A stretch of DNA of 64,000 nt from Collinsella provencensis (GTDB taxonomy: Bacteria > Actinomycetota > Coriobacteriia > Coriobacteriales > Coriobacteriaceae): the NCBI RefSeq assembly GCF_900199705.1, contig NZ_LT904908.1, forward strand, positions 255,694 through 319,693, written 5' to 3'. How positions within the stretch are numbered: the first letter of the stretch is position 1; each line of letters begins with the position of its first letter. The notes beneath the pieces were generated by a model. It did not search any database and was not told the DNA's origin. It saw only the letters and a program-made list of their open reading frames with translations. A program made the translations under genes and the position numbers. Shown one piece after another: positions 31,793 to 39,022 of this stretch.

Positions 31793-32581
31793 ATGCAATA
31801 CGACGAAACTAAATTCGCCGAATACTTTGCCGAGCATCCCGAGGACATCTCGATTGATGACATTGATATGGCGCGTCTCCCGCGCCATATCTCTTGCATT
31901 ATGGACGGAAACGGCCGATGGGCGACGAGCCGCGGTATGAATCGCGGCGAAGGACACAAGGCCGGTATCGTTGCGCTGCGCGAAATCATCACTGCCTGCG
32001 TCCGTATGGGTGTCGATGTACTTTCGGCGTATGCGTTTTCCACTGAGAACTGGAATCGCCCTCAATCTGAGGTGAACTTGCTCATGCATTTGTTCGCTAA
32101 AACGTTTATCGACGAACTGCCGCTCCTGAAGCGTGAAAATGTCCGCGTTGAATTTTTGGGCGATATCTCCGCTCTTCCGCAGAAGACGCGTGAGGTCTTC
32201 GAATATGGTCTTGCTGAGACGAAAGATCACACCGGCATGATCTTGGCGCTTGCGGTTAATTACGGAGCCCGAGCCGAGCTTGCCCGTGCTGCGCGTCTGA
32301 TCGTCCAGGACGTTCAGTCTGGAAAGCTCATGGCAGAAAAAGTAGATGAAAAGGCCGTTGCTGCGAGGCTTTACACTTCTGACCTTCCCGATCCTGAGTT
32401 GGTGATTCGCACCTCGGGTGAGATGCGCGTCTCAAATTACCTTTTGTGGCAAATCGCCTACTCAGAGTTCTATGTCACAGATACCTATTGGCCCGATTTC
32501 GATCGTTGGGGACTGGTGCGCGCCATTGCATCATTCCAAGCGCGAGATCGTCGATTTGGAGGATTGACCGACAGCAAGTAA
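31793..32581 (+). CDS. uppS: Undecaprenyl diphosphate synthase (isoprenyl transferase)
   Basis: A cis-prenyltransferase making the lipid carrier for peptidoglycan. Its 262 residues include the signature HISCIMDGNGRWATSRG near residue 32, which holds the catalytic Asp, AYAFSTENWNRP near residue 80 and PELVIRTSGEMRVSNYLLWQ near residue 200. It has an N-terminal extension of about 25 acidic residues relative to short homologues. It begins two bases after frr. Substrate comes from the MEP pathway encoded nearby (dxr, ispG, ispH). Confidence 0.95.
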   Translation: MQYDETKFAEYFAEHPEDISIDDIDMARLPRHISCIMDGNGRWATSRGMNRGEGHKAGIVALREIITACVRMGVDVLSAYAFSTENWNRPQSEVNLLMHLFAKTFIDELPLLKRENVRVEFLGDISALPQKTREVFEYGLAETKDHTGMILALAVNYGARAELARAARLIVQDVQSGKLMAEKVDEKAVAARLYTSDLPDPELVIRTSGEMRVSNYLLWQIAYSEFYVTDTYWPDFDRWGLVRAIASFQARDRRFGGLTDSK

Positions 32582-32622: not shown

Positions 32623-33489
32623 ATGGATACCAATTCCGCCCCTTCGATGAAGGGGGGCTCGAATACCGAGCGCAATAATACCCCTCTGCACTCATTTGTC
32701 GTTCGCGCAAGCGCCGGCATCGTATATGCCGTGCTTTTTATGGGCTCCCTGTTGCTCGGAGTTGTTCCCACTGCAATCTTTGTTTCTGTGATGAGCTTGC
32801 TGTGCTGCATCGAGTTTTACCGCATGGTGCGTATCGACGGTAAGGTTCCCAATGAATTCATTGGCTTAGTCGCCACGGTTCTTTTTCCGTTGTCGGCGCT
32901 GGTAGATGGCGTCTGGCTTACCGTCCTCAATTTCCTCCTCGTACTCGCCTTGGGTCTTTGGTATATCCAAATGCCCCGTGTGCGCTTGTCTGACGTTGCA
33001 GTTACGCTGTTTGGTCCGGTGTATACCGGTTACATGCTTTCGGCAGTCGTTCTTTTGCGCGCCGCGCTTCCCGGTTTTGAGGGAATTATCTTCTCTATTG
33101 GCGTTTGTGCTTCACTGTGGATCAGTGACTCCTTCGCCTACATGGTTGGCAGCAAATTTGGTAAGCATAAAATGGTTCCAAAAATCTCTCCCAAAAAGAG
33201 TTGGGAGGGTTTCTTCGGCGGACTGCTCGGCTCTGTTCTAGTTTGGATTTTCATTTGGGTTCTTTGCTCGAATACCATTGGGATTTGGTTTGCGATTCTC
33301 TGCGGAATCGTCGTGTCGATTATGGGTGTCTGCGGCGACCTTATTGAAAGCCGAATTAAGCGCGGTGTGGGCGTTAAGGACTCAGGCAACTTGATTCCGG
33401 GTCATGGCGGCATGCTCGATCGTTCCGATTCTCTCATCTTCGGTGTCATCACCGCGTATCTCTTGCTTCATATCGGTGGTGTTTTGTAA
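32623..33489 (+). CDS. cdsA: Phosphatidate cytidylyltransferase CdsA
   Basis: It makes CDP-diacylglycerol from phosphatidic acid and CTP, used by PgsA at 57102. The 288-residue membrane protein has about seven to eight transmembrane helices. The family signature is in the C-terminal part: SRIKRGVGVKDSGNLIPGHG and the following MLDRSDS. An unusual polar N-terminus (residues 1-20) precedes TM1. Its stop codon overlaps the dxr start (TAATG). Confidence 0.94.
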   Translation: MDTNSAPSMKGGSNTERNNTPLHSFVVRASAGIVYAVLFMGSLLLGVVPTAIFVSVMSLLCCIEFYRMVRIDGKVPNEFIGLVATVLFPLSALVDGVWLTVLNFLLVLALGLWYIQMPRVRLSDVAVTLFGPVYTGYMLSAVVLLRAALPGFEGIIFSIGVCASLWISDSFAYMVGSKFGKHKMVPKISPKKSWEGFFGGLLGSVLVWIFIWVLCSNTIGIWFAILCGIVVSIMGVCGDLIESRIKRGVGVKDSGNLIPGHGGMLDRSDSLIFGVITAYLLLHIGGVL

Positions 33490-34691
33490 TGACGCTTCGT
33501 TATAAAGCTTGCATGGATCTGGACAAACGACGAGACACGCGCATGCGCGTCGCAATTTTAGGCTGTACAGGATCAATCGGTTCTCAGGCACTTGATGTGT
33601 GCCGTCAACATACCGATAAGGTTCAGGTCGTTGCCCTGACCGCTCATTCAAATACGCACCAACTCGTTGCAAATGCTCGGGAATTCGGGGCGACTCGTGT
33701 TGTGGTAACTGACGAGGCGCATTGCAATGACCCCGTTCTATCCGAGCTGCCCGATGGTTGTGCACTCTTTTTCGGTTCCGATGCGCTTGCCGACCTTCCG
33801 CATCTTGAAGATATCGATATCGTTTTGGTTGCCGTCGTCGGTGCCGTTGGGCTCGAGGCGAGTTATGCGACGCTTAAGGCTGGCAAGCGATTGGCGCTTG
33901 CAAACAAGGAGCCGCTGGTTGCTGCCGGTGACTTGCTCATGCCTTTGGCCGCTCCCGGGCAACTCATCCCGGTAGATTCCGAGCACTCTGCAATCTATCA
34001 ATGCTCGATGGTGGGGGAACCTCGCGAGGTCCATCTCATTTGGCTCACCTGTTCAGGTGGCCCGTTTTTCGGTTGTTCTCACGATGAGCTTGCTCGCGTG
34101 GGGAAGCAAGACGCGTTGGCTCATCCTAATTGGAACATGGGTGCGAAAATTTCCATCGACTCCGCGACCCTTATGAACAAAGGTTTGGAGCGTATTGAGG
34201 CTATGCATCTGTTTGATGCCGACCTTGATCAAATCCAGATCGTCATTCAACGTGAGTCGAAGATCCACTCGATGGTCGAATATGCAGATGGCTCGGTTAT
34301 GGCCCATATGGGCACCTCCGACATGCGTATTCCCATTCAGTTTGCGTTCTCATACCCCGAGCGTTGGAGCACTCCTGCCCCTCGAATCGATTATCGAGAG
34401 CTTGGCAAGCTTACGTTTGATGCACCCGATGTCGAGGCATTCCCGTCTTTGCGCTTGGCCGATTTTGCAGGTCGAGTGGGCGGTACGATGCCCTGTGTGT
34501 TGAACGCTGCCAATGAGGTAGCAGTTGAGGCTTTCTTGCAAGAAGCTTGTTCGTTCAACGATATTCCGCGCGTTGTCGAGACATGCATGGAAGCGCACGA
34601 TCGTATGGAAGTTTCTTCGCTCGAGCAATTGCATGAGGTAGATGCTTGGGCGCGTTCACGTGCCGCTCAGGTACTGGCTTCACTTGCATAA
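33489..34691 (+). CDS. dxr: 1-deoxy-D-xylulose 5-phosphate reductoisomerase
   Basis: The second enzyme of the MEP isoprenoid pathway. Its 400 residues include NADPH-binding AILGCTGSIGSQALDVC, LANKEPLVAAG near residue 140 and the metal/substrate site VDSEHSAIYQC. The later KISIDSATLMNKGLE and SMVEYADGSVMAHMGTSDMR blocks are typical. ATG 33489 overlaps the cdsA stop and is used. In-frame ATG 33543 would start exactly at the conserved MRVAILG, so the true start could be later. Confidence 0.95.
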   Translation: MTLRYKACMDLDKRRDTRMRVAILGCTGSIGSQALDVCRQHTDKVQVVALTAHSNTHQLVANAREFGATRVVVTDEAHCNDPVLSELPDGCALFFGSDALADLPHLEDIDIVLVAVVGAVGLEASYATLKAGKRLALANKEPLVAAGDLLMPLAAPGQLIPVDSEHSAIYQCSMVGEPREVHLIWLTCSGGPFFGCSHDELARVGKQDALAHPNWNMGAKISIDSATLMNKGLERIEAMHLFDADLDQIQIVIQRESKIHSMVEYADGSVMAHMGTSDMRIPIQFAFSYPERWSTPAPRIDYRELGKLTFDAPDVEAFPSLRLADFAGRVGGTMPCVLNAANEVAVEAFLQEACSFNDIPRVVETCMEAHDRMEVSSLEQLHEVDAWARSRAAQVLASLA

Positions 34692-34796
34692 AACCAGGTT
34701 CTTTTTTGGGCGTTGCATGCAGTTTGCCCCCAGCGGGTATGTTCGATGGAGCGATTGTATCGAGCCGTATATCAGTACGACAGAAATTTGGATGGT

Positions 34797-36167
34797 ATGG
34801 ACTATCTTCTCGGAATTCTCGGTCCGTTGTTTTGGGGCCTGCTCCTCTTATCGGTCATTGTCTTTCTCCATGAGGGAGGACATTTCCTTGCCGCGCGCGC
34901 CTGTGGCGTGCGTGTGAGCGAGTTTTTCCTTGGATTGCCCTGTAAATTCAACATCAATCATGTATCAAGGCGCATGGGCACCAAGTTTGGCGTGACGCCC
35001 TTGCTACTCGGCGGTTATGCGGCTATTTGCGGCATGGACCCCACGCCTGCCCCTTGGGGAAGTCGCGTGCTCGCCTTGGTGCATCGCCATGGAACCATCA
35101 GTGCGTGGGATGCTCATCGAGAACTTGGTTTGAGTGCCGATGAATTGTCTGAAGCGGTGTACCTCCTACAGGACTGGGGATCCATTACAACCGAGGAGAT
35201 TGAACCGTCTGCTGATCATCCAGAAATCGAGGGCTTTTCGTACGTTCTTCGTTCCGTTCCACGCGATGCGCAAGGAAACACGTTGTTTGACGGCCGGTTG
35301 TTCGATCGAGCAAACGCAACGCAGGCGGGGGAGGTATGGGAACCCCCTATGGATGACGAGGCGTTCTATGCCCAAGAACGCTCCCGGACGTACCAGGGAA
35401 AGGGCTTTTGGAAGCGCGCGTTTATGCTTGTTGCCGGTATTGCGGTCAACATCGTCACCGGTTTTTTGTTTATCGTTATGGTGTACTCCGTCATCGGCGT
35501 GGACATCACCATTAATACCAATGAACTGGGGGCGGTGACCGCTGGATCGCCTGCAGATCAGGCCGGTCTACATGGTGGAGACAGCATTATCTCGATTGAT
35601 GGCGTTGAGACCGATTCCTGGTTGGCCATTCTTGATGAATTGGATGCGTTTGAAGCTGGCGATACCGTTCAAATCGAATTTGAGAGCGCGGACGGCGAGA
35701 TAAAGACCGTGCCCGTTGAGCTTGATGACGCGGGTATGATCGGCATCTCGGTTAAGGAAGAATGCGTTCGCCTCAATCCGTTCGATTCCTGCTCTATTGC
35801 AGTGGAGAATATCGTGCTTACAGCGCGTTCAATTGCAAGTTTGATCAACCCGCAGCACACGAAAGAGGTGCTTGATAATTCCACTTCGGTGGTCGGTATC
35901 TCAATCTTGTCAGCTCAGGCGGCTTCTGCGGGTGTCGCTTCGTTCTTGAACTTCGCGGCACTCATTTCGTTCTCGCTCGGATTTATGAACCTTCTGCCCA
36001 TACCTCCGCTTGACGGTGGCAAGCTCGTCATTGAGATTGTCCAGGCCATATTGCACCGTGAAGTATCGCTCAAGGTGCAAACGATCCTGTCGTTTATCGG
36101 CGTCGGGCTGTTCATGCTGCTCTTCATCTACATGCTGCGCGCTGACATCATTCGGTTCTTCTTATAA
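34797..36167 (+). CDS. rseP: RseP-type site-2 zinc metalloprotease with a wHTH-like insertion
   Basis: An intramembrane protease cleaving membrane-bound anti-sigma or regulatory proteins. The 456-residue form starts MDYLLGILGP. Zinc motif HEGGH is at residues 25-29 in TM1, a PDZ domain covers about residues 245-310 (LGAVTAGSPADQAGLHGGDSI), and the last catalytic motif NLLPIPPLDGGK is near the C-terminus. Between the GGYAAICGMDP region and YQGKGFWKRAFMLVAGI there is an insertion of about 100 residues (89-190). Its first part (LALVHRHGTISAWDAHRELG to LLQDWGSITTEE) looks like a winged helix. ATG 34746 is an alternative start. It sits between dxr and ispG, the usual locus. Confidence 0.93.
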   Translation: MDYLLGILGPLFWGLLLLSVIVFLHEGGHFLAARACGVRVSEFFLGLPCKFNINHVSRRMGTKFGVTPLLLGGYAAICGMDPTPAPWGSRVLALVHRHGTISAWDAHRELGLSADELSEAVYLLQDWGSITTEEIEPSADHPEIEGFSYVLRSVPRDAQGNTLFDGRLFDRANATQAGEVWEPPMDDEAFYAQERSRTYQGKGFWKRAFMLVAGIAVNIVTGFLFIVMVYSVIGVDITINTNELGAVTAGSPADQAGLHGGDSIISIDGVETDSWLAILDELDAFEAGDTVQIEFESADGEIKTVPVELDDAGMIGISVKEECVRLNPFDSCSIAVENIVLTARSIASLINPQHTKEVLDNSTSVVGISILSAQAASAGVASFLNFAALISFSLGFMNLLPIPPLDGGKLVIEIVQAILHREVSLKVQTILSFIGVGLFMLLFIYMLRADIIRFFL

Positions 36168-36181
36168 CGGGAGATGGAAAC

Positions 36182-37243
36182 ATGACCTCACTTGCCCGTA
36201 ATTTGACGCGTCCCGTTATGGTTGGCAACGTGCAAATCGGTGGCGGTGCACCTGTCGTGGTCCAATCGATGACCTGTACGCCGACGACTGACGCTGAAGC
36301 CACGCTCGCGCAGGTTCGTGCGCTCGCCGAGGTGGATTGTGATGTTGTGCGTGTGAGCGTTCCCACGCGTGAGGCGCTGGAACCTTTTGGGCGCGTGTGC
36401 GCGCAGAGCCCTGTTCCCATCGTCGCCGATATCCATTTTGATTATCGCCTGGCAATTGGGGCGGTACGGGCTGGTGCAGCCAAGCTGCGCATCAACCCCG
36501 GCAACATCGGCTCGTGGGAACGCGTCGATGCCGTTATCGATGCGGCGGGCGAGGCGGGCGCTGCCATTCGCATCGGTGTGAATGCGGGGTCGCTTGACGA
36601 GACGATTGCCGCTCGCGATGACCTTACGCAGCCCGAGAAGCTCGTTGCGTCATCGTTGCAGTTTGTCGAGCACTTCGAGCAGCGTGGATTCGAAAACATC
36701 GTATTATCCGCGAAGGCCCACAGTGTTAACACCACCATCGAGACGTATCGCGCGCTTTCGCGTGAGCTTCCCACGGTGCCCCTTCACCTGGGCGTAACGG
36801 AAGCGGGAACGCACTTGCAGGGAACCATCAAGAGCTCTGTCGCGCTCGGCGTCCTGCTATCCGAGGGCATTGGCGATACGTTGCGCGTGTCGCTTACCGC
36901 CGATCCCGTGGATGAGCTGCCGGTCGCATGGGGAATCCTTTCGTCGCTCGGTTTGCGCCGGCGTGGTCCCGAGCTGGTAAGCTGTCCCACCTGTGGACGC
37001 ACGCAGGTGAATTTGATCGATCTTGCCGAACAGGTATCCCAACGACTCAAAACGTGCGACAAGCCGATTTCCGTCGCGGTGATGGGATGTGTGGTCAACG
37101 GTCCTGGCGAGGCGTCGGACGCCGATGTGGGGGTTGCCTGCGGCAGGGGAGTGGGTATGGTTTTTCGCCATGGCGAAATCATCCGCAAGGTCCCTGAGGA
37201 TCAGATCGTTGATGCCCTCATGGAGGAAATCGCCCTGCTCTAG
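36182..37243 (+). CDS. ispG: (E)-4-hydroxy-3-methylbut-2-enyl-diphosphate synthase IspG (GcpE)
   Basis: A [4Fe-4S] enzyme of the MEP pathway. The 353-residue protein has the N-terminal TIM-barrel block VGNVQIGGGAPVVVQSMTCT and PIVADIHFDYRLAI. The cluster cysteines lie near the C-terminus in SCPTCGRTQVN (two) and VAVMGCVVNGPGEA (third), with the conserved glutamate in that last motif. ATG 36182 follows GGGAGATGG. It lies 14 bases after rseP. ispH is elsewhere in the window at 46740. Confidence 0.96.
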   Translation: MTSLARNLTRPVMVGNVQIGGGAPVVVQSMTCTPTTDAEATLAQVRALAEVDCDVVRVSVPTREALEPFGRVCAQSPVPIVADIHFDYRLAIGAVRAGAAKLRINPGNIGSWERVDAVIDAAGEAGAAIRIGVNAGSLDETIAARDDLTQPEKLVASSLQFVEHFEQRGFENIVLSAKAHSVNTTIETYRALSRELPTVPLHLGVTEAGTHLQGTIKSSVALGVLLSEGIGDTLRVSLTADPVDELPVAWGILSSLGLRRRGPELVSCPTCGRTQVNLIDLAEQVSQRLKTCDKPISVAVMGCVVNGPGEASDADVGVACGRGVGMVFRHGEIIRKVPEDQIVDALMEEIALL

Positions 37244-37257: not shown

Positions 37258-37294
37258 TGCTTCGTTTGACTGTATTTCTATGAGGAGGTCGCCA

Positions 37295-39022
37295 GTGTTT
37301 AAGACGCGCGCCATGAAGATGTCCCAACTCTATGCACCCACCCTTAAGGAGGATCCGGCCGATGCCGAACTCGCCAGCCATCGTTTGATGCTGCGCGCCG
37401 GTATGATTCGCAAGCAGGCGGCCGGCCTCTACAGCTACCTGCCGCTTGCATGGCGCTCTTTACGCAAAATCGAGGACATCGTGCGCGACGAGATGGATGC
37501 CGCCGGCGCTCAGGAGTTGCTCATGCCCATCATGGTCGATGCCGAAGTTTGGCATGAGTCCGGTCGCTACAACGCATACGGTCCGGAGCTCATGCGTTTC
37601 TCCGATCGCCATGAGCGCGAGTTCGTGCTCGGCCCCACGCATGAGGAGACCGTGGTCGACCTGATCAAGAACGAGCTCAGAAGCTATAAACAGTTGCCTG
37701 TCAACCTGTATCAGATTCAGGACAAGTTCCGCGACGAGATGCGTCCGCGCTTTGGTTTGATGCGCGGTCGTGAATTCATCATGAAGGACGGCTACTCCTT
37801 TAATGCAACGCAGGAGAGCCTGCAGGAGACCTATGACGCAATGAAGCAAGCGTATGCGAACATTTGCGAGCGCTGTGGCATCAAGGCCCTTCCCGTTGTT
37901 GCCGACTCCGGTCAGATTGGCGGCGACACTTCCGTCGAGTTCATGGCACTGGCCGATGCCGGCGAGGCAGCGCTTGTGTATTGCGATGACTGCGGTTATG
38001 CGGCAGACGACGAGGCTGCCTCCACCCGCATCGCCGTGACCGAAGGCCCTGGCGACGGCACGCTTACCAAGGTGCACACTCCTGGTCTCGGTTCGATTGC
38101 CGATGTTGCGGCATTCTTCGAGTTCCCTGAGAACGGCACTCGCAAGTCTCTGGCTCTGTTCGACGCTGAGGGCAAGCCCGTTGTCGCCATTGTCCCGGGC
38201 GACCACGAGCTCAATGAGTGCAAAGCCGACCACGCGTTTGGCGAGGGCTGGCGCATGATGACCGACGAGGAGCTTGAGCAGGTCGGCCTGTTCAAGGGCT
38301 TTATCGGGCCGGTGAATCTGCCCGAAGGCGTCCGTTTGGTCTGTGACGTGAGTCTCAAGGACTCCAAGCAGTGGGCATGCGGTGCCAATGAGATTGACTA
38401 CCACTACACAGGCGCCTGCCCGGGTCGCGATTTTGAGGCGGATGCCTGGGAGGACCTCGTCACCGTCGTCGCGGGCGATCCGTGCCCCCGTTGCGGTAAA
38501 CCGCTTGCCGGCGCGCGTGGCATCGAGGTGAGCCAGGTCTTCCAGCTCGGCACCAAGTATTCTGCAGCTATGGGAGCTACATTTGCAGACGAAAACGGTG
38601 TTGAGAAGCCGTTTTTGATGGGTTGTTATGGCGTGGGTGTCTCCCGTACGCTCGCCGCGTCCGTCGAGCAGCACCATGACGAGCATGGCATCATTTGGCC
38701 GGTTTCCATCGCCCCGTTCGAGGTTTCCGTCATTCCGCTCGATCCGGGCAAGGAGCCCTGCCAGAGTGCGTGTGACGCGATTGTCGAGGCGCTTTGTGAT
38801 GCGGGTATCGAAGTCGTTGTGGACGATCGTTCTGAACGTCCCGGCGTCAAGTTCGCCGACAACGACCTTATGGGCTTCCCGTATCAAATCGTGCTTGGCA
38901 AGCGCGGTCTTGCCAACGGCACGGTTGAACTGAAAGATCGTGCCACGGGCGAGCGTGAGGATGTTGCCATCGACGAGGTGGCGTCCAAGGTCGCTGCTTT
39001 GGTAATCCCTCAGCGCGCGTAA
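37295..39022 (+). CDS. proS: Prolyl-tRNA synthetase (bacterial ProS type)
   Basis: A class II synthetase charging tRNA-Pro. Its 575 residues include motif 1 around ELLMPIMVDAEVWHESGR, motif 2 around FRDEMRPRFGLMRGREFIMKD, and motif 3 CYGVGVSRTLAASVEQ. An editing (INS) domain lies between motifs 2 and 3 (about residues 225-390, including KSLALFDAEGKPVVAIVPGDHE). The C-terminal anticodon-binding domain starts near 475. GTG 37295 has GAGGAGGT at 37282-37289; the upstream ATG at 37280 would overlap that site and is rejected. A tRNA-Pro gene is at 56913. Confidence 0.96.
   Translation: MFKTRAMKMSQLYAPTLKEDPADAELASHRLMLRAGMIRKQAAGLYSYLPLAWRSLRKIEDIVRDEMDAAGAQELLMPIMVDAEVWHESGRYNAYGPELMRFSDRHEREFVLGPTHEETVVDLIKNELRSYKQLPVNLYQIQDKFRDEMRPRFGLMRGREFIMKDGYSFNATQESLQETYDAMKQAYANICERCGIKALPVVADSGQIGGDTSVEFMALADAGEAALVYCDDCGYAADDEAASTRIAVTEGPGDGTLTKVHTPGLGSIADVAAFFEFPENGTRKSLALFDAEGKPVVAIVPGDHELNECKADHAFGEGWRMMTDEELEQVGLFKGFIGPVNLPEGVRLVCDVSLKDSKQWACGANEIDYHYTGACPGRDFEADAWEDLVTVVAGDPCPRCGKPLAGARGIEVSQVFQLGTKYSAAMGATFADENGVEKPFLMGCYGVGVSRTLAASVEQHHDEHGIIWPVSIAPFEVSVIPLDPGKEPCQSACDAIVEALCDAGIEVVVDDRSERPGVKFADNDLMGFPYQIVLGKRGLANGTVELKDRATGEREDVAIDEVASKVAALVIPQRA

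Follow-up and report, generated by a model that had tools for sequence, protein, structure and literature searches.

A winged helix-turn-helix insert in the RseP site-2 protease of the class Coriobacteriia as a candidate docking or gating domain

RseP is a known enzyme family, which is found here with a new accessory domain: an insert with a well-supported predicted winged helix-turn-helix (wHTH) fold, located just after the membrane-reentrant (MRE) β-loop region of this intramembrane metalloprotease. The insert is a recurrent domain of Coriobacteriia, a class with gut as well as environmental members, and is not restricted to Collinsella provencensis, the source of the window (the whole stretch of 64,000 nucleotides that was analysed). 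Almost all genomes of the class carry it. The best explanation of the data as a whole, to which we give about even credence, is that this class-specific wHTH was gained once and serves for protein docking or gating, rather than for DNA binding.

We identified the rseP gene of the window by its protein, which passes the cut-off of the NCBIfam model for RseP (TIGR00054, 172.3 bits against 147.55), matches the Peptidase_M50 family (PF02163, 151.6 bits) and passes the cut-off of PDZ_2 (PF13180, 31.2 bits against 27). The normal RseP parts reported in the earlier note (HEGGH, GGYAAICGM, a PDZ domain and LLPIPPLDGG) are all found in this protein. The features of the protein and the neighbouring genes are as follows.

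31793–32581, + strand: uppS, upstream (NCBIfam)
32623–33489, + strand: cdsA-like gene, upstream (NCBIfam, match below the cut-off)
33489–34691, + strand: dxr, upstream (NCBIfam)
34797–36167, + strand: rseP, site-2 (intramembrane) metalloprotease, 456 aa (open reading frame with ATG at 34797; a TTG at 34713 is a possible alternative start, giving a longer protein)
34869–34883, + strand: HEGGH zinc motif in TM1, residues 25–29 (H25, E26 and H29 invariant in 44 rows)
34983–35036, + strand: strands of the putative MRE β-loop region, residues 63–80, ending with GGYAAICGM at 72–80 (model strands 63–66 and 73–77)
35046–35201, + strand: wHTH core, insert residues 84–135 (AlphaFold2, wHTH matches of Foldseek and VIA-align, profile matches)
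35175–35177, + strand: W127, directly before the wing (alignment conservation)
35202–35354, + strand: variable extension, residues 136–186, holding the wing strand 149–153 (alignment)
35355–35381, + strand: pre-TM2 helix, residues 187–195 (AlphaFold2 model)
35406–35495, + strand: TM2 helix, residues 204–233 (AlphaFold2 model)
35490–35720, + strand: single PDZ domain, residues 232–308 (PF13180; missing in the Eggerthellaceae-type orthologues)
35991–36020, + strand: LLPIPPLDGG motif, residues 399–408 (P401, P404, D406, G407 and G408 identical in all 44 rows)
36182–37243, + strand: ispG, downstream (NCBIfam)
37280–39022, + strand: proS, downstream (NCBIfam)

G79 and M80, at the end of the β-loop region, are also invariant in the 44-row alignment, and from their position residues 63–80 presumably correspond to the MRE β-loop. 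The gene order around rseP varies within the class. At least 30 named class loci were obtained by a contig scan with fragment alignment, while the single-protein scan gave none. In 30 of these loci, some of which stop at contig ends, Dxr is close to rseP in 21 and IspG in 25; both are present in 18, Dxr only in three, IspG only in seven, and neither in two (L112 and L123). A Dxr–RseP fusion, considered for the 857–1045 aa frames of family f5, was rejected: in the four that were fetched (L218–L221), dxr lies in another frame, and they are run-on frames.

How large is the insert? In the window RseP, 135 residues separate GGY (residue 72) from the conserved R207 of TM2. In 20 loci picked for clear matches among 92 genomes of the same phylum outside Coriobacteriia, the corresponding distance is mostly 31 or 32 residues (16 loci); two loci have 37, and the remaining two have 63 and 76. 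It is 99–160 among the class members of the 44-row alignment and 99–175 in the 31-row alignment, which consists of the window and the 30 named loci and shares species with the former (L029, which lacks HExxH and lies at a contig end, was left out of one measurement). The window RseP therefore has about 104 extra residues between the GGY strand and TM2, close to the 100 or so that the earlier note had claimed at 35061–35366, corresponding to residues 89–190 of the 456-aa protein. In the comparison with solved structures, the aligned pieces are separated by 18 residues in Kangiella koreensis RseP versus 123 in the window protein, and by six in Aquifex aeolicus RseP versus 115. As a separate observation, the 63- and 76-residue linkers outside the class (L176 and L181) are highly charged by eye, and their extra sequence looks unlike the wHTH insert and unlike each other.

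The fold of the insert was predicted with AlphaFold2, both in the context of the whole protein (31-row alignment; mean pLDDT 91.9, pTM 0.85) and for the insert alone (residues 75–200; pLDDT 85.0, pTM 0.80), and the two confident models contain the same elements. A helix (88–98) is followed by a strand (100–102), a second helix (103–110), the recognition helix (114–126) and two further strands (130–134 and 149–153). This is the α1-β1-α2-α3-β2-β3 order of the winged helix-turn-helix, and the predicted fold is well supported. The proposal of the earlier note that the first half of the insert is a wHTH is thus upheld by the two models, by the structure matches and by weak Pfam wHTH matches in several members. 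The conserved wHTH indeed occupies the first half (88–134), while the second half (about 136–186) is mostly the variable extension, which has a similar form in families f1, f3, f5 and f8 and is different or shorter in the others.

The structure searches point in the same direction. The ten best Foldseek matches of the insert in the PDB comprise nine rows of wHTH proteins and one of TFIIIC, with E-values from 6.2e-3 to 0.049 and a probability of 1.00 for the first five rows; no match of the insert alone against the PDB reached E 0.001. The putative HTH regulator 1sfx and the ROK repressor Lmo0178 head the list, and the other wHTH rows include two MarR-family proteins, Zα and TFE. VIA-align gave Z scores up to 8.1, including 7.4 for the Zα structure 4lb5 (rmsd 1.3 over 57 residues), where a Z below 8 may mean merely a common arrangement. 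At the sequence level, nine of the 44 inserts have a MarR_2 (PF12802) match with an E-value of 0.1 or lower, the best being 7.5e-7. The window insert itself remains below the cut-off (E 0.024; 15.3 bits against 27), and FtsK_gamma weakly matches six of the 44 (best 7.1e-4). Profile comparison of the insert gave weak matches to DDRGK1 (E 0.0051) and TFE (0.011). The insert thus resembles MarR_2 in fold and weakly in sequence, and differs from it in its score below the cut-off and its acidic recognition helix. In addition, MarR proteins dimerise through long flanking helices, which are not seen in the insert; the insert-alone model has one short helix after the wing.

Next, we investigated the distribution of the insert, using a profile built from the 44 class inserts. 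It matches 322 of 329 Coriobacteriia genomes of >=90% completeness at E<=1e-8, some of these genomes having also supplied profile sequences, and this recurrence across the class places the insert far from chance. Among 296 genomes drawn from across the phylum, all 34 listed class members match at 4.1e-21 or better, and the listed genomes without a match all lie outside the class. The insert is not a common property of RseP within the phylum: none of the 262 genomes outside the class matches at E<=1e-8, and other phyla were compared through the solved RsePs only. The best match outside the class (5.7e-6) lies in an 805-aa frame, and we read such weak matches as generic wHTH similarity. An in-genome paralogue was considered as the source of the insert and rejected, as the profile matches only once in the window's genome at E<=0.01, namely RseP itself.

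Seven class genomes lack a match at E<=1e-8 (G061, G133, G029, G549, G605, G516 and G139). In G133, the start of the contig truncates RseP. Weak matches only (E 6.5e-5 to 6.2e-4) are present in G029, G549 and G605, G516 and G139 have none, and RseP was not found in these five genomes. The remaining one, G061, is the single real exception seen and has a complete RseP (L211/L215; contig C1:135128-136255) without the insert, with about 36 residues from GGY to TM2, lying between Dxr and IspG. Its closest BLAST match is an insert-bearing RseP of its own family (L070, 262 bits), and the best row outside the class scores 169 bits.

To describe the history of the insert, a tree was built of 64 RsePs (44 with the insert, 19 from outside the class, and that of G061), from which the insert and PDZ columns were excluded and one outside-class protein (L174) was left out. 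The insert state changes twice on this tree, as compared to a mean of 17.2 changes in 500 shuffles, none of which was as low. The simplest reading of this tree is one gain and one loss, with a single gain near the base of the class being the most likely. The branch uniting the class has an SH-aLRT of 94, just below the 95 mark. The position of G061 inside the class has support values of 84 and 82, and the strongly supported branches force only one change; therefore, the reading of G061 as a loss leans also on its GTDB class and the BLAST match. The absence of the wHTH in G061 is probably a secondary loss.

The conservation of the wHTH is close to that of the PDZ domain. With the Eggerthellaceae rows set aside, the mean pairwise identity reaches 30.6% in the wHTH and 30.7% in the PDZ domain, as compared to 15.8% in the extension and 59.5% in the catalytic N-terminus. 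Two positions stand out: L124 is present in 44 of 44 rows, and W127 is a tryptophan in 39 of 44 and in 31 of 31 aligned rows. The position of W127 is a glutamate in the profile alignment to DDRGK1. The conservation of this aromatic residue suggests that it marks a contact site.

How might the wHTH act? According to PMC4597795, the MRE β-loop enters from the cytoplasmic side, lies close to the active site and is linked to substrate binding. Since the insert starts a few residues past the last β-loop strand, it should be cytosolic and adjoin the substrate path. Judging from the RseP topology, the wHTH would thus lie on the cytosolic face, between the MRE β-loop and TM2. There, it may dock an adaptor from the cytosol or the cytosol-facing portion of a membrane substrate, and in this way position or gate substrates at the active site. 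We propose docking or gating because the wHTH is inserted directly after the β-loop region that helps to hold the substrate in E. coli RseP. In B. subtilis, the function of the RseP relative RasP is reported to require EcsA (PMC10128001), and partner control of this protease family therefore has a precedent.

No substrate candidate emerged from the zf-HC2 and TIGR02937 searches of the window's genome. The zf-HC2 anti-sigma model has no match there (it was found in one of 21 genomes searched), and TIGR02937 gave nine sigma-factor matches, only two of which are above the cut-off (frames of 265 and 455 aa). With zf-HC2 unmatched and two sigma factors above the cut-off, the usual kind of target is perhaps missing, and this genome, in which anti-sigma factors were judged by zf-HC2 only, may lack a canonical ECF sigma/anti-sigma circuit.

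The wHTH is also retained where the PDZ domain is not. Among the 31 aligned proteins, 17 match PDZ models, and the other 14 (L107, L111–L118, L120, L121, L123, L124 and L129) have only nine or ten residues in the PDZ columns, as compared to 81–87 in the others. The wHTH and the catalytic motifs are present in every one of these 14. By title, they comprise three Slackia, two Adlercreutzia, one Enteroscipio and one Parvibacter, genera that we take to belong to Eggerthellaceae, together with five “Eggerthellaceae”, one “Coriobacteriia bacterium” and one “Bacterium D16-34”; the last two would be placed in Eggerthellaceae by sequence likeness only. The tree shows a single change of the PDZ state, and its six Eggerthellaceae rows (family f2) form a group with a support of 99. 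The PDZ domain is thought to work outside as a size filter (PMC10202637). The wHTH may have taken over the substrate selection of the PDZ domain, which would have allowed Eggerthellaceae to lose the latter. This alternative is compatible with docking or gating, and both the retention of the wHTH in all 14 PDZ-less proteins and the single, grouped PDZ change agree with it. However, the other families hold both domains, so the wHTH has not made the PDZ domain dispensable everywhere, and a plain loss of the need for a size filter fits the data equally. We consider the takeover possible, but rather unlikely.

The wHTH could instead be a domain for self-association (dimerisation) or an intramolecular brace of RseP, which we regard as similarly doubtful. 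wHTH domains often dimerise, the pTM of the full-length model may reflect a fixed place of the wHTH on the core, and the strong conservation of W127 would suit such an interface, while the G061 protein suggests that the core needs no brace.

The earlier note had left two roles side by side, DNA binding and protein docking, and the charge of the domain bears on this choice. The recognition-helix stretch (112–126) has a net charge of -4 in the window RseP. Its net charge is below zero in 43 of 44 and 29 of 31 rows, and above zero in none of the 44 and one of the 31. The whole wHTH (84–135) is net negative in every row of both alignments (44/44 and 31/31). In contrast, the wing stretch (127–156), with -4 in the window RseP, has a positive net charge in 12 of 44 and 14 of 31 rows, reaching +8, as has helix 1 in 25 of 44 and 19 of 31 rows, so that other faces of the domain might still touch nucleic acid. 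How unusual is this acidity? Of 1226 15-aa pieces from 40 long window frames, which were found mechanically and need not all be genes, 46% carry a negative charge and 5.1% a charge of -4 or lower, and 13.1% of 658 52-aa pieces from long window frames are at -6 or lower. The acidity of a single wHTH is thus not extreme, and its consistency among the relatives is the argument.

Binding to DNA or RNA, by which the wHTH would tether RseP to the nucleoid or make it a membrane-bound regulator, has in its favour that the closest structure matches are for the most part wHTH proteins that bind nucleic acids, some of them solved with DNA, and that a part of the wings is positive. Nevertheless, DNA binding is improbable, because the recognition-helix stretch is consistently acidic. 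Moreover, five MarR_2 matches above the cut-off elsewhere in the window's genome have recognition stretches of -1, +3, -1, +3 and +2 (approximate placement), as compared to -4 in the window RseP. Of the two roles, docking is accordingly the best reading, and DNA binding is disfavoured despite the partly positive wings. Finally, a neutral spacer that happens to fold is very improbable: its absence from the G061 lineage and its low sequence identity would suit a spacer, but the insert is present in 322 of 329 class genomes, keeps L124 in all and W127 in 39 of the 44 rows, and has an identity at the level of PDZ and about twice that of the adjoining extension.

We compared the protein with known systems. 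The full-length model matches the solved RsePs of E. coli (7w6x, E 8.6e-19), K. koreensis (7w6y, 2.2e-17) and A. aeolicus (9j82, 4.8e-16), and shares with these group I site-2 proteases (S2Ps) the catalytic motifs, the MRE β-loop region, the PDZ domain and the layout of the TM helices. Unlike them, it adds the wHTH after the MRE β-loop region. It has a single PDZ domain, whereas E. coli RseP has a tandem and the Eggerthellaceae-type members have none. The best full-length structure match (E 1.6e-22) is 9a6w, titled as a RASP-ECSA model, which combines an RseP relative with EcsA as the second protein. In that case, regulator and protease are two proteins, while in the window RseP the domain is built into the protease. 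The S2Ps of group III, with their CBS domain, and SpoIVFB resemble the Eggerthellaceae RsePs in having an extra domain and no PDZ (PMC10202637); the extra domain of group III is CBS rather than wHTH, and the window protein scores as RseP. The same source describes PDZ in group I, CBS in group III, or no accessory domain in S2Ps. Among the open-access literature matches listed, neither a wHTH within an S2P nor an Eggerthellaceae RseP lacking PDZ is described.

Docking or gating by a wHTH at the edge of the substrate-holding β-loop would be a new way of regulating intramembrane proteolysis, and the domain was apparently gained once and kept through nearly the whole class, including common gut bacteria. 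It is conceivable, although we would not expect it, that these proteins form a new S2P subfamily, in which a built-in winged helix selects substrates inside the cell and has replaced the outside PDZ filter in Eggerthellaceae. If so, the Eggerthellaceae RsePs would obey a cytosolic signal instead of site-1 trimming. The Eggerthellaceae-type RseP, with the wHTH and no PDZ, and the G061 protein, with no wHTH, are natural experiments that could separate the roles of the two domains.
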